NCBI GenBank assembly: GCA_023015935.1
Contig: JALKAY010000001.1
Location: 310,874-374,873 of the forward strand
Reading direction: 5' to 3'
DNA length: 64,000 bases
DNA from: Flavobacteriaceae bacterium F08102
Lineage (GTDB): Bacteria; Bacteroidota; Bacteroidia; Flavobacteriales; Flavobacteriaceae
Both the position numbers and the translations under genes were made by a program. Every line of letters begins with the position of its first letter. Position 1 is the first letter of the stretch. The notes under the pieces are model-generated. The model saw nothing but the letters and a program-made list of their open reading frames with translations, did not search any database and was not told where the DNA came from. Below, piece by piece: positions 5,959 to 20,439 of this stretch.

Positions 5959-6789
5959 ATGAAAATTTACCACATAAAGATTGTTTTCCTTTTAATGACG
6001 CTAATTCCGCTTGGTATTTCTGCTCAAGAAAAGCTAAAAGGAAATAAAATCGTTGTAAGCGAAACTCGCGATGTAGATGATTTTACAAAAATTGATGTCA
6101 ACAACAAAATAGATGTAGTAATCACTCAAGGGACTGAACAAATAGTAACGGTTGAAGGAGATGAAAATTTACTCCCGGCTGTTTTGACGGAAGTAAGAAA
6201 CGGGGTACTTGTAATCAGTGTCACAAAAAAAATACTGCGAAAAAAGGTGTTAAAAGTACATATCACAATCGATCAATTTATCGAAGAAATCACGACAAAT
6301 GAACGTGCATATGTAAGCAGTTTTGGCGGATTAAAATTTGATAAAATAACGATTAATGCCGAAGGTGATTCTAAAGTTACCCTCGATATGAATTGTTCTG
6401 AATTCTTTTTAAACAACAATGCCAGTGCAGTGGTTAATCTCACCGTCCACACTACATCTTCTTATATCAATGCAAATAAAACGGGAAAAGCAAAAATTAA
6501 TTTAACAACCAATACCGCCGAAATTTTAACCCAAGGGAATTCTACCACTGAAATTTCAGGTATAGCAAATGAACTGTTGCTAAATGCTGAAAATAAAAGC
6601 AACTTTAAAGGGGAACATTTTGAAGTGAACACCCTTAAGGTTTATGGTTCAGATGGTGCCGACATTCATGTAAATGCGGCCTCCGACATTACAATTTCTG
6701 CCATTAACACTTCAGAAATTTATATTTACAACAACCCTACAATTACGATAGAGAATTTCACTGACAAAGCAGTTTTAAGAAAAAGATAA
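5959..6789 (+). CDS. DUF2807 (head GIN domain) secreted protein
   Basis: 276 aa from the ATG at 5959, which gives a clean signal peptide (MKIYHIKIVFLLMTLIPLG, cut near SAQ). The open frame continues upstream, but those residues precede the promoter and are not expected to be translated. The mature part reads as repeated short beta strands (FTKIDVNNKIDVVITQG, KITINAEGDSKVTLD, INLTTNTAEI, VYGSDGADIHVNA), as in the right-handed beta-helix fold of DUF2807 proteins. These are common in Bacteroidota and of unknown function, probably in the periplasm or at the cell surface. The two-component system genes begin about 100 bases downstream; whether the genes are linked is unclear. Confidence 0.85.
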   Translation: MKIYHIKIVFLLMTLIPLGISAQEKLKGNKIVVSETRDVDDFTKIDVNNKIDVVITQGTEQIVTVEGDENLLPAVLTEVRNGVLVISVTKKILRKKVLKVHITIDQFIEEITTNERAYVSSFGGLKFDKITINAEGDSKVTLDMNCSEFFLNNNASAVVNLTVHTTSSYINANKTGKAKINLTTNTAEILTQGNSTTEISGIANELLLNAENKSNFKGEHFEVNTLKVYGSDGADIHVNAASDITISAINTSEIYIYNNPTITIENFTDKAVLRKR

Positions 6790-6885: not shown

Positions 6886-7563
6886 ATGAAAATATTAATT
6901 GTAGAGGACGAAGAAGAATTATTAAACTCTATTACGAGTTATTTAAAAAATGAAGATTTTATTTGCGAAAAGGCAACCACTTTCTTGGAAGCTGAAGATA
7001 AGATTGTCGGCTTTAATTACGACATCATTATTTTAGACATTGGTCTTCCCGATGGCAGTGGTCTTGATTTACTAACCTTAATAAAACAACAATCCGCACT
7101 TACCGGAGTATTAATTGTTTCCGCAAAAAACTCTTTAGATGACAAATTAGCCGGTCTCGATTTAGGTGCCGACGATTATATTACTAAACCCTTTCATTTA
7201 GCCGAATTAAACTCTCGAATCAATTCGCTCATTAGAAGACGTCAATTTAAAGGAGATGAAGTAATCAAATTTAATGAAATTCACGTCAACCCAAATTCTA
7301 AGACTGTAACTGTGAATAATCAACCCATGGAATTAACCAAAAAAGAGTATAACCTACTCTTGTATTTCATTACCAATAAAAACAAAGTACTTACTAAAGA
7401 GTCCATTGCAGAACACCTATGGGGCGATGATATTGAAATGGCAGATAGTTTTGATTTTATCTATACCCACATGGGGAATTTAAGAAAGAAAATTAAAAAG
7501 TTAGGTGCACCTAATTATTTACGCACCATGTATGGTTTAGGGTATAAATTTTCAGACAAATAA
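6886..7563 (+). CDS. OmpR/PhoB-family response regulator
   Basis: 225 aa DNA-binding response regulator. The receiver domain covers about residues 1-115, with acidic pocket VEDEEE, phosphoacceptor Asp51 (IILDIGLPDGSG), the conserved S in VSAK and the lysine in DDYITKPF. The C-terminal winged helix covers about residues 125-225 (ELTKKEYNLLLYF, VLTKESIAEHLW, YTHMGNLRKKIKK, TMYGLGYKF), the trans_reg_C fold whose members bind 7-bp direct repeats at about 11-bp period. The histidine kinase ATG follows its TAA directly, so the pair is one operon. Three matching direct-repeat elements lie just downstream of the kinase, which makes this protein their obvious candidate regulator. Signal unknown. Confidence 0.95.
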   Translation: MKILIVEDEEELLNSITSYLKNEDFICEKATTFLEAEDKIVGFNYDIIILDIGLPDGSGLDLLTLIKQQSALTGVLIVSAKNSLDDKLAGLDLGADDYITKPFHLAELNSRINSLIRRRQFKGDEVIKFNEIHVNPNSKTVTVNNQPMELTKKEYNLLLYFITNKNKVLTKESIAEHLWGDDIEMADSFDFIYTHMGNLRKKIKKLGAPNYLRTMYGLGYKFSDK

Positions 7564-8823
7564 ATGAAGTTAATCAATAAAACAGCAAGAACCTATTTAA
7601 TAATGTCAGTGATTATTTTTATCGCTGCAGGTATCATGTTGTTTTTTGTATTGACTGAAGTAATGAATAGGCAATTAGAAGAAAAATTGTACTACAACAA
7701 AGAAGTTGTTGAAAAGATAGTCAAATACGACTACCCCTTACCAACGCTAGAAGCCGAGCGAATGACTCCGATCGAGAAGATCAAATTTCCCAGAGACACC
7801 ATCATCATCAAAGACACGTTAATTTCACATGCCATTGAAGGCGTCGATATTGATCAATTTGAAAAATACAGACAACTGACAGCTTATGAAACCCTACAAG
7901 GTCAACGATGGAGAATTGTCACGCGTAATTCGCTAGTGCGAAACAAAGACTTTATTTGGGTGATTACATGGACTACTGTAGTTATATTGTTATTACTCTT
8001 AACGAGTCTTTGGATTTTAAACACACGTATTGCAAAAAAACTTTGGAAACCTTTCTACACCAATTTAAACCGGTTAAAGAATTTCTCTGTTCAAGATCAA
8101 AACCCTATAAACCTAGAAGAATCATCTATTGAAGAATTCTCCCAACTAAACGAATCTATTTTAAGCCTAACTCAAAAGCTACAATCAGATTATAACAGTT
8201 TAAAAGAATTCTCTGAAAATGCCTCTCACGAAATGCAGACCCCATTGGCCATTATGCAGTCAAAGATTGAATTACTGCTACAGTCGCCAATGATTAACCA
8301 AGAACAAACAGAACAATTGCGCTCCATCTATCAAGCAGGAAATCGTTTATCTAAACTCAATAAAACTTTATTGCTATTGGCAAAAGTTGAAAATCAACAA
8401 TTCAGCACCAAAGAACAAGTAGACATAAAAGCGTTAATCTTAAAGCACCTTGAAAATTATGAGGATTTCATCTTAAACAAAAACATCATCGTTCAAACAG
8501 AACTCTGTGACAAAAAAATTCAAGCCAATGCAATTTTAGCTGATACGTTATTATCTAACTTGTTGAGTAATGCAATAAAACACAACATCCAAAACGGAAC
8601 CATTACCATTACTTTAACCGATAAATTTTTAGAATTTTCTAATACAGGAAATGCACTAACACAAGACCCGGCAAATTTATTTAATCGGTTTAAAAAAGCA
8701 AGCAACTCAAAAGAATCTCTCGGACTGGGACTCGCCATCGTAAAACAAATTTGCGATGTCAACGGATGGCACCCAAATTACACCTATAAAAACAAATTAC
8801 ACAAAATTTCAATTCTTTTTTGA
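7564..8823 (+). CDS. Sensor histidine kinase, partner of the upstream response regulator
   Basis: 419 aa inner-membrane kinase. One membrane segment lies near residues 11-31 and another near 131-152, flanking a periplasmic sensor region of about 100 residues that resembles nothing I can name. After a short linker, the dimerisation/H-box has His222 in NASHEMQTPLAIM. The ATP-binding domain follows, with N-box NLLSNAIKHN (about 332-341) and G-box LGLGLAIV (about 386-393). The start codon follows the regulator's stop with no gap, indicating translational coupling. The C-terminus is short and ends right after the ATPase core. Confidence 0.95.
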   Translation: MKLINKTARTYLIMSVIIFIAAGIMLFFVLTEVMNRQLEEKLYYNKEVVEKIVKYDYPLPTLEAERMTPIEKIKFPRDTIIIKDTLISHAIEGVDIDQFEKYRQLTAYETLQGQRWRIVTRNSLVRNKDFIWVITWTTVVILLLLLTSLWILNTRIAKKLWKPFYTNLNRLKNFSVQDQNPINLEESSIEEFSQLNESILSLTQKLQSDYNSLKEFSENASHEMQTPLAIMQSKIELLLQSPMINQEQTEQLRSIYQAGNRLSKLNKTLLLLAKVENQQFSTKEQVDIKALILKHLENYEDFILNKNIIVQTELCDKKIQANAILADTLLSNLLSNAIKHNIQNGTITITLTDKFLEFSNTGNALTQDPANLFNRFKKASNSKESLGLGLAIVKQICDVNGWHPNYTYKNKLHKISILF

Positions 8824-8858
8824 CTTCAATATTTCTTTAGAATCGGGACATACTTTTG
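8824..8858 (+). promoter_or_regulatory. Operator/promoter unit, copy A (upstream of the broken PepSY-like gene)
   Basis: CTTCAAT (8824-8830), ATTT, CTTTAGA (8835-8841), ATC, six bases, then the -7 box TACTTTTG (8851-8858). The layout is a 7-bp direct repeat at 11-bp period, as bound by OmpR/PhoB-type regulators, placed where a -33 box would be. The CTTTAGA arm and its distance to the -7 box are identical in copies B and C. The leader after the -7 box (ACCTAACAAACAAA) closely resembles that of copy C. It starts one base after the kinase stop codon. Confidence 0.7.
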
Positions 8859-8897
8859 ACCTAACAAACAAAACTAAATAGTAATATTAAATTATAA

Positions 8898-9227
8898 AAA
8901 AAATTAAGTTACGCCTTTGTTATTACTGCTTTTAGCTTAGTGAGTACCCATTCGTTTGCACAAGAAATGAAAGACGTCGTAGAAGCGGTACAACAAGAAA
9001 AAGTAAAAATTGAACTTGGAGATTTACCAGAAGCTGTGACCAAATAACTCACCACAGATTTCGAGGAGTACAATGCACTCAAGGCATATACAACCATGAA
9101 AGACAATACAAAGATTTATTACGTAGTACTGAGCATAGCCGACCGTAAAGTTGAGGCATACTATAGTGAAGAAGGAAAATTAATTGGAAAAGAAGAAATT
9201 AAAAGTAAATGGATTCTATTGAATTAA
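8898..9227 (+). pseudogene. Broken PepSY-like secreted protein gene
   Basis: The frame reads KKLSYAFVITAFSLVSTHSF-AQ, a good signal peptide, then a mature part with IELGDLPEAVTK, TDFEEYNALKAY and IYYVVLS...KVEAYYSEEGKLIGKEE, and ends at TAA 9225-9227. The pattern resembles PepSY-like (PF11396-type) proteins that are abundant in Bacteroidota. Two lesions are visible. No start codon precedes the signal peptide: the codon before KKL is TAA within TTATAAAAAAAATT, where ATG followed by six A's would be expected. An in-frame TAA also lies at 9045-9047, after VTK. Either alone would silence it. Intact relatives often sit beside two-component systems, as here. A strong terminator follows. Confidence 0.7.
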
Positions 9228-9250
9228 AAAGTAAATTTCTTTGTAAAGCA

Positions 9251-9284
9251 GCCGAGCATACCTTGTTACGCTCGGCTTTTTTTT
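9251..9284 (+). terminator. Rho-independent terminator after the PepSY-like pseudogene
   Basis: GCCGAGC (9251-9257) pairs with GCTCGGC (9270-9276), followed by eight T's. It closes the transcript started at copy A, showing that the unit was once a single-gene transcription unit. Confidence 0.85.
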
Positions 9285-9371
9285 ATTCAAGAAACTCAGC
9301 CTATAATTACATTTAAGTAGATTTAGCTTCGAAATACTAAATATTTGTTAATTTAAACAACAAGCTCCCAT

Positions 9372-9406
9372 CTTGCAAATTTCTTTAGATTCTACTTGTA
9401 CATTTG
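9372..9406 (+). promoter_or_regulatory. Operator/promoter unit, copy B (upstream of the 37-codon gene)
   Basis: CTTGCAA (9372-9378), ATTT, CTTTAGA (9383-9389), TTC, six bases, then TACATTTG (9399-9406). It has the same spacing as copies A and C. A TTG at 9373-9375 also lies 23 bases before the -7 box, so this copy could double as an ordinary promoter. The ATG of the mini-gene lies 20 bases after the -7 box. Confidence 0.7.
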
Positions 9407-9426
9407 AGAAAATAAAAAAAAGAAAA

Positions 9427-9540
9427 ATGGAAAACGAAAACAAATTATACTACGTTACCTTGGCAAATGAAAATGCCAAAGTCGAGTTTCTTTTTAATGC
9501 AAACGGAGACATCTTAGCGAAACCGACATTCAAAAAATAA
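9427..9540 (+). CDS. 37-aa peptide resembling the C-terminal part of the PepSY-like protein
   Basis: ATG at 9427, stop TAA at 9538-9540. The peptide starts MENENKLYYVTLANENAKVE and continues FLFNANGDILAKPTFKK. It has no signal peptide. It aligns with the end of the neighbouring pseudogene: NKLYYVTL / TKIYYVVL, KVEFLFNANGDIL / KVEAYYSEEGKLI. It may be a remnant of a deleted PepSY-like gene or a real small protein. In favour of a real gene are a strong upstream promoter element, an A-rich AAGAAAA before the ATG, an intact frame and a hairpin terminator after it. Against it is the very small size. It sits alone in its transcription unit. Confidence 0.5.
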   Translation: MENENKLYYVTLANENAKVEFLFNANGDILAKPTFKK

Positions 9541-9599
9541 AAATTGGGTTGATTGCTGTTAGAAACAGCTTTTCTGTCTTGGATCTAGCTGTTTCTTTC
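9541..9599 (+). terminator. Conserved tail and hairpin, copy 1
   Basis: The 17-base segment AAATTGGGTTGATTGCT (9541-9557) is followed by a stem GAAACAGCT (9562-9570) / AGCTGTTTC (9587-9595) and a short T-rich tail. The same 17 bases and the same stem recur at 9720-9787. It probably terminates the 37-codon transcript; the unpaired 17-mer is conserved for reasons not evident. Confidence 0.6.
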
Positions 9600-9634
9600 A
9601 ATTTTAGTAAAAAATAAATGAACTCCACTCAAAA

Positions 9635-9669
9635 CTTCAGAATTCCTTTAGATTCTGTTTATATATTTG
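9635..9669 (+). promoter_or_regulatory. Operator/promoter unit, copy C (no coding region follows)
   Basis: CTTCAGA (9635-9641), ATTC, CTTTAGA (9646-9652), TTC, six bases, then TATATTTG (9662-9669). This is the most regular direct repeat of the three, with six of seven bases identical between arms. The following leader AACTATCAAACAAACAT matches copy A's leader. Confidence 0.7.
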
Positions 9670-9675
9670 AACTAT

Positions 9676-9787
9676 CAAACAAACATATTGAATTATGTAG
9701 GTTCATTAAAATACAGAGCAAATTGGGTTGATTGCTTTAATTGAAACAGCTTAATACATTTCTACAAACATTAGGCTGTTTCTTTTT
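9676..9787 (+). ncRNA. Candidate small RNA or gutted gene unit
   Basis: Between promoter copy C and a terminator hairpin there is no usable reading frame; the only ATG (9695) is followed directly by TAG. Transcription would give an RNA of roughly 110 bases ending in the repeated 17-mer AAATTGGGTTGATTGCT (9720-9736) and the stem GAAACAGC (9743-9750) / GCTGTTTC (9775-9782) plus a T-run. It could be a regulated small RNA, or a copy of the PepSY-like unit that lost its coding part. The exact 5' end is a guess from the -7 box. Confidence 0.35.
9743..9787 (+). terminator. Hairpin tail, copy 2
   Basis: GAAACAGC / GCTGTTTC stem (9743-9750 with 9775-9782) followed by TTTTT. It is equivalent to the hairpin at 9562-9595 with a different loop sequence, so the stem has been kept while the loop changed. 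Confidence 0.65.
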
Positions 9788-9938: not shown

Positions 9939-11903
<1,965 letters not shown>

Positions 11904-17466: not shown

Positions 17467-20439
17467 ATGCAAAACAAAGGAGTTATTAAAACATTTGCAA
17501 TTATTTTCGGCTTAATCTGCCTTTACTACCTATCGTTCACTTGGGTGCACAATCGTGTAGTAAATGACGCAAAAGAATTTGCCAATGGTGATCCAGTCAA
17601 AGAAGATCAATATTTGGATTCTGTTGCAAATAAGCCAGTTGCCAATTATTTGTTTCAAAATTTTACGGGGTCAGAAATAGAAGACAGAGCCTTAAACTTA
17701 GGTCTTGATTTGAAAGGTGGAATCAATGCCACCTTAGAACTTCAAGTTAGATCAATTCTTTCTGGTCTTGCACTTGATTCTAGAAATGCCGTTTTCAATA
17801 AGGCACTTGCAGACGCATCAGCCGCACAAACTAATAGTGATAAAGACTATCTTGATTTGTTTTTTGAAGCGTTTGAAAAAGAAAGTAAGGGTACAGTAAA
17901 ATTAAGTGACCCAAGCATTTTTGGCAATAAAAACTTAAAAGACAAAATTACCTTTAAGCTCACGGATGAAGAAGTAAAGCCAATTTTACGAGAAGAGATT
18001 AAAAGTGCAATCAATACGGCATTTACCGTATTGCGTAATAGAATTGACCGTTTTGGTGTAGCTTCTCCCAATATACAACAAGTAGGTGAATCGGGACGAA
18101 TAATCGTAGAATTACCCGGGGCAAAAGATATTGATCGCGTTAAAAAATTGTTAGAAAGCACGGCTGAATTACAGTTTTGGGAGTGTTACGAAAATACCGA
18201 AACAGCACAATTTTTCATCGCTGCGAACAATAAGCTAGCGGAAATACTGAAACCAATTAAGGATACTGTTTCTGAAGTTGCTGTAGATTCAACCAAGTCA
18301 AAAGAATCAGAAATTGAAGCTTTATTAGGTGAAGAAAAAGATTCTGTAGATACGGCAGCAGCAAACCCTCTATTTTCAATTTTTTATCCTAGCATCCCCC
18401 AATCAGCAGAACAACGAAGTTCGGTTGTTGGTTCTGCTTCTGTGAAAGATACGGCACAAGTTAATGCCTATTTACGTATGCCAGAAATCAGACGTCTTCT
18501 TTCAAATGACATGGTTTACACTAAATTTTTATGGGATGCTAAACCTGTAAAAAATACAGAGGTAATCAATTTATATGCCATCAAATCTAACAGTAGAGAC
18601 GAAGCTCCAATTGAAGGTGACGTTGTTTCAGATGCTTCTCAACAATATTCAGCGATAGGTTCTAGAGCAGAAGTTTCGATGACCATGAATAGTAAAGGAA
18701 CGAAACAATGGGCAAAAATGACCGAAGAAAATGTCGGCAAATTTGTGGCTGTTGTATTAGATAACCTCGTCTATTCTGCTCCTATTGTTAATGGAGCCAT
18801 TCCAAACGGCAGAACATCTATTGAAGGAAATTTTACGGTAGCTGAAGCACAAGATTTAGCAAATGCCCTTAAGTCGGGTCGTTTACCAGCAGCCGCGAAA
18901 ATTATAGAATCATCCGTAGTAGGTGCTTCCTTAGGACAAGAAGCAATACACAGCAGTACTATTGCTTTTATTTTAGCACTCTCATTGGTATTGGTTTGGA
19001 TGTTGTTTTATTACGGTAAAGCAGGGATTTATGCAAATATTGCGTTACTCCTAAATATTCTATTCATTTTTGGTGTTTTAAGTGCTTTTGGTGCGGTACT
19101 TACCTTACCTGGTGTTGCCGGGATTATTATTACCATAGGGATGTCTGTTGATGCCAACGTGATTATTTACGAGCGCGTAAAAGAAGCGCTTAATAAAGGA
19201 AAAAATCTCAAAGAATCAATCAATGAAGGGTTTAGTTTTAAAGGAGCATTATCTGCTATTATTGACGCAAATATCACAACCTTTTTAACAGGTATTATCT
19301 TATACATTTTTGGTTCTGGTCCAATAAAAGGTTTTGCAACCACCTTAATGATTGGAATTGCAACCTCATTAGTAACGGCGGTATTTATTACACGTTTATT
19401 AATTGAGTGGTCTGCCAATAGAGATCGTAAAATGACTTTTAATACTGTCATAACTAAAGGATGGTTTCAAAACATCAAGATTGATTTCTTGGCAAAACGA
19501 AAAATTGCATATGTCATTTCAGGAATAGTTATCATATCAGGGATCGTTTCACTCTACACCAATAGTTTAAATTACGGTGTTGATTTCACAGGAGGTAGAA
19601 CGTATACCGTTCGATTTGAAAAGGATATGAATCCATCTGAAGTGTCTAATACCTTAAAAGAAGTCTTTGGGGATAGTCCAGAGGTAAAAACCTATGGATC
19701 TTCAAATCAATTAAAAATAACCACTAAATATAAAGTAGAAGAAAATTCATTGGAAGTAAGTGATGAAATTCAAGAAATAATGTTCAAATCATTACAAAAT
19801 TTCTTACCTGATGGTACTACTTTAGAGGACTTTAAAATTGGGGCAAAAGAAGCAGATCACGAAAATAAAATCGGGATCATGCAATACCTTGAAGTCGGAC
19901 CAACAATAGCTGATGATATTAAGCAAGCTGCGATTTGGGCAATTTTAGGATCACTCCTCGTAGTATTCTTATATATTTTACTCCGATTCAGTAAATGGCA
20001 ATTTAGTCTAGGTGCTGTAATCGCCGTTTTTCACGATGTTTTAATCGTACTCGCTATCTTCTCATTATTCTATAAAGTATTGCCTTTTGATATGGAAATA
20101 GGTCAATCATTTATCGCCGCACTATTAACAGTTGTTGGATATTCATTGAATGATACCGTGGTAATCTTTGATAGAATTAGAGAATTTAGAGCAAGACACA
20201 GCTCATGGCCATTTAACCGAATTGTAAATGCTGGATTAAGTAGCACCTTAGGAAGAACTATTAATACTTCACTAACTACTTTAATCGTATTACTTGCCAT
20301 CTTCTTATTCGGAGGTGATTCAATCAAAGGATTTATGTTTGCCATGATTATTGGCGTTGTAGTGGGTACCTATTCATCGCTATTCATAGCTTCACCTATT
20401 ATGTATGACACCACGAAAAGATTAGAAAATAAGAATTAA
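17467..20439 (+). CDS. secDF: Protein translocase SecDF (fused SecD-SecF)
   Basis: Inner-membrane RND-type motor that uses the proton gradient to help Sec export. 990 aa. The SecD half has an N-terminal membrane helix (ITFAIIFGLICLYYL-like), LGLDLKGGINATLEL, a large periplasmic P1 region, and a membrane core with GMSVDANVIIYERVKE near residue 560. The SecF half starts near residue 665 (DFLAKRKIAYVISGIVII), with GVDFTGGRTYTVRF and VGYSLNDTVVIFDRIRE. The single-chain form and an insert of about 100 residues in P1 with no equivalent in E. coli are common in Bacteroidota. A terminator separates it from the hpt-adk gene. Confidence 0.97.
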   Translation: MQNKGVIKTFAIIFGLICLYYLSFTWVHNRVVNDAKEFANGDPVKEDQYLDSVANKPVANYLFQNFTGSEIEDRALNLGLDLKGGINATLELQVRSILSGLALDSRNAVFNKALADASAAQTNSDKDYLDLFFEAFEKESKGTVKLSDPSIFGNKNLKDKITFKLTDEEVKPILREEIKSAINTAFTVLRNRIDRFGVASPNIQQVGESGRIIVELPGAKDIDRVKKLLESTAELQFWECYENTETAQFFIAANNKLAEILKPIKDTVSEVAVDSTKSKESEIEALLGEEKDSVDTAAANPLFSIFYPSIPQSAEQRSSVVGSASVKDTAQVNAYLRMPEIRRLLSNDMVYTKFLWDAKPVKNTEVINLYAIKSNSRDEAPIEGDVVSDASQQYSAIGSRAEVSMTMNSKGTKQWAKMTEENVGKFVAVVLDNLVYSAPIVNGAIPNGRTSIEGNFTVAEAQDLANALKSGRLPAAAKIIESSVVGASLGQEAIHSSTIAFILALSLVLVWMLFYYGKAGIYANIALLLNILFIFGVLSAFGAVLTLPGVAGIIITIGMSVDANVIIYERVKEALNKGKNLKESINEGFSFKGALSAIIDANITTFLTGIILYIFGSGPIKGFATTLMIGIATSLVTAVFITRLLIEWSANRDRKMTFNTVITKGWFQNIKIDFLAKRKIAYVISGIVIISGIVSLYTNSLNYGVDFTGGRTYTVRFEKDMNPSEVSNTLKEVFGDSPEVKTYGSSNQLKITTKYKVEENSLEVSDEIQEIMFKSLQNFLPDGTTLEDFKIGAKEADHENKIGIMQYLEVGPTIADDIKQAAIWAILGSLLVVFLYILLRFSKWQFSLGAVIAVFHDVLIVLAIFSLFYKVLPFDMEIGQSFIAALLTVVGYSLNDTVVIFDRIREFRARHSSWPFNRIVNAGLSSTLGRTINTSLTTLIVLLAIFLFGGDSIKGFMFAMIIGVVVGTYSSLFIASPIMYDTTKRLENKN

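Follow-up and report, generated by a model that had tools for sequence, protein, structure and literature searches.

Results

The window, that is, the whole 64-kb stretch of DNA analyzed here, carries a gene for an OmpR/PhoB-family response regulator of 225 aa (positions 6886–7563, + strand; Pfam Response_reg and Trans_reg_C) followed by one for a sensor histidine kinase of 419 aa (7564–8823, + strand; Pfam HisKA and HATPase_c). With a receiver and a winged-helix Trans_reg_C domain in the one protein and HisKA and HATPase_c in the other, the pair belongs to the OmpR/PhoB-family two-component systems. A DUF2807 protein is encoded upstream of the pair (5959–6789), and gyrB (9966–11903) and a malate-dehydrogenase-like gene, both named by eye, lie downstream. 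The best PDB matches of the regulator were BasR/PmrA (8jo2, 140.3 bits, and 4s04, 140.1 bits), with response regulator D (1kgs, 140.0 bits) level; judged by its sequence, PmrA/BasR is the closest solved relative of the regulator in a tie with 1kgs. Farther downstream, positions 17467–20439 hold a single 990-aa reading frame that by eye resembles a SecD-SecF fusion.

A pattern search found CTT-N8-CTTTAGA-(A/T)TC-N6-TAnnTTTG without mismatch at three sites, all on the + strand, each a predicted direct-repeat operator joined to a -7 box: site 1 at 8824–8858 with TACTTTTG, site 2 at 9372–9406 with TACATTTG, and site 3 at 9635–9669 with TATATTTG. The first base of site 1, 8824, is the base right behind the kinase stop codon, which ends at 8823. 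A sequence-only reading of this DNA had described three sites of one architecture with half-sites 11 bp apart and an OmpR-type regulator gene about 1.3 kb upstream, and on these points it was borne out: the sites at 8824, 9372 and 9635 match without mismatch, the starts of the CTT arms are separated by 11 bp at all three, and the regulator gene ends at 7563, 1.26 kb before site 1.

The core CTTTAGAWTC-N6-TAnnTTTG, with up to 2 mismatches allowed, matched three times in the 64-kb window; shuffled windows gave a mean of 0.27 matches, and none of 100 reached three. The exact core occurred three times in the whole genome (G000; 3,322,108 bases in 51 contigs), always at this locus, and its reversed control not at all; with 3 mismatches allowed the same search was uninformative (46 matches versus 38 for reversed controls). 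In the 17 genomes of the genus set (Aureibaculum, the window's own genome included; Aureibaculum luteum and A. marinum are two named members), a search for the direct repeat that allowed up to 2 mismatches gave 130 matches versus one reversed-control match. Chance clustering of the sites was ruled out by the window shuffles, the exact search of the own genome and the genus count against its reversed control.

We compared the same locus in relatives, where the sites proved to be conserved. A kinase ortholog (59–70% identity) was found in 15 of the 16 other genus genomes, the exception being G309, which is 79% complete, and all 15 relatives carrying the kinase have at least one site (up to 2 mismatches to the core) downstream of it, with 1 to 5 such sites per genus genome. 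In a sister clade, Lutimonas and kin, 11-bp direct-repeat sites lie just downstream of the kinase in 13 of 13 loci. Farther out, among more distant Bacteroidota, the motif becomes sparser: 35 of 80 loci were read, and of the 13 among them that lie beyond the sister clade, three (L218, L222 and L223) have a site when up to 3 mismatches are allowed and ten have none.

The full operator in relatives reads CTTwAGA-N4-CTTTAGA-N9-TAnnTTTG, a true 11-bp direct repeat. The first arm in the window is CTTCAAT at site 1, CTTGCAA at site 2 and CTTCAGA at site 3; set against the rule of the relatives, it is degenerate at sites 1 and 2 and full at site 3 only. This corrects the earlier description of a 7-bp first half-site starting with CTT. 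The PmrA box, in the excerpt of the source, is made of two half-sites arranged head to tail, CTTAAG and XTTAAT, with five bp between them (PMC3973317). The relatives show this layout, a direct repeat of CTTAAG-like half-sites at 11-bp spacing. The promoter consensus of Bacteroides fragilis has TTTG near -33 and TAnnTTTG at -7; for Flavobacterium johnsoniae, the excerpted source reports the -7 element as confirmed and a -33 motif as not identified (PMC7366714). On the basis of these published -33/-7 positions, the first arm would cover -33 and the second arm would fall within the spacer. The conservation in 15 of 15 genus relatives and 13 of 13 sister-clade loci, along with the almost identical box of PmrA/BasR, gives good comparative support to the reading that the three sites are operator/promoter units under the control of the OmpR-type pair next to them.

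We next describe what lies behind the sites. Sites in the genus often precede genes for secreted proteins, mostly of 97–116 aa. An AlphaFold model built from 17 relatives had a mean pLDDT of 73.6 overall and of about 90 in the domain; its first 11 Foldseek matches fell on 7 Bacteroides/Parabacteroides entries with probability 1.00 and E values of 6e-4 to 0.03 (one match with E < 0.001), entitled DUF2874 (three), calcium-binding or calcium-regulated, or putative periplasmic. The unit proteins have, by this prediction, a PepSY-like fold. In a Pfam search, one of five proteins matched PepSY_like (PF11396) with a best score of 18.4 bits (E 0.0027), below the gathering score of 28.3, and the other four gave no match to this family.

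Unit 1 of the window holds the remains of such a secreted PepSY-like protein gene (8898–9227, + strand), with no in-frame start codon and one in-frame stop (9045–9047); the remnant is 51% identical to an intact relative (L170:6396–6725). It is followed by a terminator-like hairpin and a T run (9245–9289, + strand; inverted repeat I9), and a copy of the conserved RNA element described below was not found in this unit. Unit 2 has a reading frame, shared with relatives, for a 37-aa microprotein without signal peptide (9427–9540, + strand). Pfam searches with the unit 1 read-through and with the microprotein returned chance-level matches only. A 47-aa form of the microprotein occurs in five other genus genomes (G299, G300, G301, G310 and G119), and dN was lower than dS in 15 of 15 pairs, the window sequence being compared over 30 codons; by this codon comparison the family is under purifying selection. 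As a separate observation, two units of G307 (L058:3742–4600) encode acidic secreted proteins of 79 and 71 aa that keep a signal-peptide-like start and by eye have no PepSY-like part.

At the 3' end of most genus units stands GCAAATTGGGTTGATTGC, separated by a short spacer from a terminator stem, GAAACAGCTTAA/TTAAGCTGTTTC; in three genomes GCTAATTCGGTTAATGGC is found instead, with another stem sequence. The element consists of a hairpin with a near-invariant loop (AUUGGGUUGAU) and a covarying terminator, and the 18 nt of the hairpin including the loop are nearly invariant and lie outside the terminator stem. RNAalifold on 32 of the 33 distinct copies gave 19 consensus pairs, of which 8 have changes on both sides; 4 of these 8 double changes all come from one set of four copies, contributed by three near-identical genomes. 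A covariance model, R1, which was built from most of the copies that it finds in the genus, gave 37 matches of at least 70 bits in 16 of the 17 genus genomes. Outside the genus nothing in 199 family genomes exceeded 44.3 bits, and weak matches of 30–44 bits, in 55 of the 199, were read as terminator-like chance.

The link between site and RNA element is tight: a site lies upstream of 35 of the 37 element copies found by pattern, and the two others are a copy at L026, whose site is poorer, and a copy 290 bases short of a contig end. Conversely, 15 sites in genus loci are followed by no exact-pattern copy of the element within 900 nt or ahead of the next site. Five of these 15 belong to microprotein units running into the next unit, two lie at contig ends, one (G307, L058:3295) does have an R1 match, and at L141 a weaker site lies in between; for the remaining ones, unit 1 of the window among them, no element was shown.

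In the window, unit 2 ends in a degenerate copy of the element (9531–9600, + strand; R1 46.6 bits). Unit 3 would be a small RNA of about 113 nt (9675–9787, + strand, predicted ends), with an R1 match of 84.1 bits at 9710–9787 (+ strand), a terminator stem and T run at 9743–9787 (+ strand; the stem covaries in the 32 aligned copies), and no frame of at least 30 aa between site and element. The predicted RNA folds at -23.9 kcal/mol (z -3.4), and none of 200 shuffles was as stable. Such ORF-less units, with no frame of 30 aa from site to element, occur in nine loci: the window, L055, L056, L057, L059 and L064–L067. Their element starts 31 nt behind the -7 box in five loci, 48 nt in the window and 55–57 nt in three, and on a tree of the regulator-kinase pair they fall on three branches, some nodes being weak. 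These units bear on what the element does. It could be a terminator or a 3'-UTR stabilizer instead of a regulatory RNA, and in many units it is indeed the 3' UTR of a protein mRNA; the stricter proposal that it acts in cis as a stabilizer or attenuator of PepSY-like transcripts, with no free small RNA, nevertheless seems unlikely to us, given that in nine loci the element has its own site and no reading frame in between.

The sister clade gave a second set of units. Its 13 loci (L174–L186; kinase 47–50% identical) contain 28 units with a site, and the order regulator-kinase-gyrB is found in the ten loci whose contig reaches gyrB. No ATG frame of 60–190 aa starts within 1.5 kb past the kinase in these loci, three of which are shortened by contig ends. 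As far as sequence and predicted folds tell, what follows the sister-clade sites is a set of structured RNAs sharing a conserved UGAGGGGA; a PepSY-like gene was not seen behind these sites. GAGGGG is present in 27 of the 28 units, and TGAGGGGA is invariant in all 21 of these 27 that were aligned; at least two further GAGGGG copies (L181 and L183) lack a recognized site. RNAalifold on the core alignment, which was aligned by sequence only, gave no consensus pairs, and the hairpins were therefore folded one by one. At least 6 pairs enclose GAGGGG in 25 of the 27 single-sequence folds, and none of its bases pairs elsewhere in 23 of the 27; the z score of the folds averaged -2.0 (range -4.8 to +0.8; 100 shuffles each), and the stem sequences differ.

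Model R2 matched strongly in only two of 199 family genomes, G025 and G146, twice in each, and each of these matches is preceded by a site at the same synteny. Three weak matches (G172, G197 and G112) had no site within their loci. L173, which stands in between, has one noncoding and one PepSY-like unit. In G146 (L343), two nearly identical adjoining RNA units suggest a recent tandem duplication.

The protein and RNA units together allow us to weigh whether the sites are leftover promoters from the tandem duplication of one PepSY-like gene, with units 2 and 3 as decaying relics and the RNA element as only their terminator. We consider this quite unlikely. Unit 1 is indeed broken, the element of unit 2 is degenerate, and the number of sites per array ranges from 1 to 5 among genomes; yet the microprotein family is under purifying selection, an 18-nt hairpin and loop outside the terminator stem is near-invariant, the ORF-less unit recurs in nine genomes on three tree branches (some nodes weak) with a constant 31-nt spacing in five, and the sister-clade loci show RNA units only.

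Neither RNA matched a known Rfam family. Rfam (4227 families, gathering scores) gave no match in eight loci (six of the sister clade and two of the genus), and in the window between 8600 and 10100 all matches were below threshold, with a sole Qrr match at 9180–9285. Among the matches listed by a literature search, none describes this locus or these RNAs. What is new here is the products of the units: PepSY-like proteins, a microprotein and predicted small RNAs, which the sequence-only reading had missed, and above all two RNA families absent from Rfam.

The near-invariant loop of the genus element may serve base pairing or protein binding. The 11-nt complement of the loop (ATCAACCCAAT) matched 129 times in the 17 genus genomes versus 49 times for reversed controls; 30 of the 129 are the element's own antisense, and with these copies excluded the loop complements (99 versus 49) are still about twice as common as the controls, an excess that perhaps reflects codon use. 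Sixty of the 99 non-self matches, in eight genomes, were read. Nine of the 60 lie between -80 and +30 of the start of a 60-aa frame; three of the nine concern a single gene of G299, G300 and G301, which are close relatives, the others occur once each, and none is in the own genome. With 60 matches read, this 11-nt antisense search revealed no mRNA target near a start codon that the genus has in common.

The motif also occurs beyond the locus. From the genus matches, 40 flanks holding 42 sites were chosen by hand; a frame of at least 90 aa starts within 400 nt of 37 of these sites, one site lies inside a frame, and for four none was listed. Judged by eye, the genes behind further genus sites encode an approximately 100-aa protein, an approximately 600-aa secreted protein, OmpA-like lipoproteins, a coiled-coil membrane protein and more PepSY-like proteins. 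The own genome has another clear site at C33:232490, where a gene for a secreted protein of 586 aa follows, and at C50:126145 a weaker one. Control of the sites by the adjacent pair is supported by comparison, and the term local regulon used in the sequence-only reading is too narrow, because in the genus the motif also precedes other genes.

Family-wide, the exact motif gave 22 matches in 20 of 299 genomes versus two for reversed controls. Seventeen of the matches lie outside the genus and outside G146, and the surroundings of six of these were inspected: two (in G013 and G129) precede a Sulfatase-fold gene, and no PepSY-like frame was seen among the frames listed around the other four. In both G013 (L340:602–5593) and G129 (L341:4090–7007), the site is followed by the Sulfatase-fold gene and then by a diacylglycerol kinase gene. 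In G013 a related kinase gene lies directly upstream, with another site ahead of the regulator gene; in G129 no kinase gene adjoins the site within the stretch fetched.

A further possibility is that a different regulator or an alternative sigma factor recognizes the motif and that the adjoining pair is a passenger. This would suit the presence of the motif ahead of unlinked genes, the sites of G309 (79% complete, no kinase ortholog found) and the G129 site with no kinase adjoining in the stretch fetched, and is nonetheless highly improbable, as mismatch-free sites cluster beside the pair in nearly every genus genome having it, the motif suits PmrA-type regulators, the -7 element is an ordinary TAnnTTTG, and in G013, a family member farther removed, a related pair is flanked by sites.

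Discussion

Our results suggest that the three switch sites of the window probably turn on small envelope proteins and newly recognized small RNAs. Comparison of genomes indicates that related marine bacteria have retained this layout, including those that have lost the protein genes. In the mechanism that we propose, the kinase would phosphorylate the PmrA-like regulator upon an envelope signal, and the regulator would then bind CTTwAGA-N4-CTTTAGA in head-to-tail fashion, the first arm lying over -33, and activate the TAnnTTTG promoters. This anatomy would suit a PmrA/PhoB-type activator acting on a promoter whose -33 contact is weak. Each promoter would drive one tandem unit, yielding a secreted PepSY-like protein, a conserved 3'-end small RNA as a stable product, or one of them alone; in the own genome, the protein of unit 1 would have been lost, unit 2 would give the microprotein, and unit 3 would give RNA only.

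That a PmrA-like pair drives tandem protein/3'-RNA units from direct-repeat promoters is, on balance, a probable reading of the locus, held with reasonable though not high confidence. Against it stand the degenerate first arm at sites 1 and 2, the tie with 1kgs and the pairless RNAalifold result of the sister clade, as well as the element-less genus sites, the site-less distant loci and the antisense search that gave no shared target.

A broader proposal, which we put forward tentatively, is that within one bacterial family a PmrA-like system alternates in its output: in some members PepSY-like envelope proteins encoded in tandem, in others structured small RNAs belonging to two new families. 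Such an RNA could have begun as a 3' UTR or could be ancestral, and several lineages, that of the window included, might have dropped the protein and kept promoter and RNA. The loops (AUUGGGUUGAU and UGAGGGGA) would then be the functional sites, perhaps as sponges for one protein. To our knowledge, few small RNAs of Flavobacteriaceae have been described. The locus provides a regulator, its predicted operator and two non-Rfam RNA families at one syntenic place beside gyrB, and its natural series from a protein with a 3' UTR to an RNA alone can be used to test the idea that 3'-UTR RNAs become independent small RNAs.

The closest known arrangement is CpxR-cpxP-CpxQ. CpxP is located in the periplasm. 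For enterobacteria, the excerpted source reports that conservation within the cpxP gene is highest in the 3' UTR and that this UTR is released by cleavage as a small RNA (PMC9438474). The present locus shares with this system of Enterobacteriales a two-component regulator, a gene for a small periplasmic protein, and a conserved 3' end giving a small RNA, here a predicted one. It differs in that the units are in tandem beside the regulator pair, the RNA has its own promoter-like site in nine genomes, and the sister clade shows no protein. With PmrA/BasR (PmrAB) it has in common the regulator, as tied closest solved relative, and the head-to-tail half-sites of the excerpted description (PMC3973317), whereas the promoter is of the Bacteroidota type (TAnnTTTG) and the outputs are PepSY-like proteins and RNA. 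The predicted fold of the unit proteins matches solved members of the DUF2874/PepSY_like (PF11396) periplasmic proteins of Bacteroidota; unlike those, the proteins here fall below the Pfam gathering score, have a single short domain and are encoded in tandem arrays. Qrr and OmrA/OmrB are examples of tandem redundant small RNAs, in which regulated RNAs that resemble one another and have conserved loops are encoded next to each other; the units described here likewise place similar predicted RNAs with conserved loops in a row, with no sequence relation to either shown.

PmrA controls lipid A modification genes, and the Sulfatase-fold and diacylglycerol kinase genes that follow a site in two distant family members recall this role. 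Two further groups of genus sites were observed. In six genus genomes, a motif whose -7 box ends in TTCG lies 218–243 nt ahead of a gene for a secreted protein of approximately 560–612 aa, leaving a long 5' leader (L125, which is the C33:232490 site of G000, and L127, L130, L132, L138 and L151). In seven genus genomes, a motif site is followed by a gene for a conserved protein of approximately 90–106 aa with GEIVVCVNA..RWYRLGGL or a similar sequence (L128, L131, L133, L136, L143, L146 and L156).
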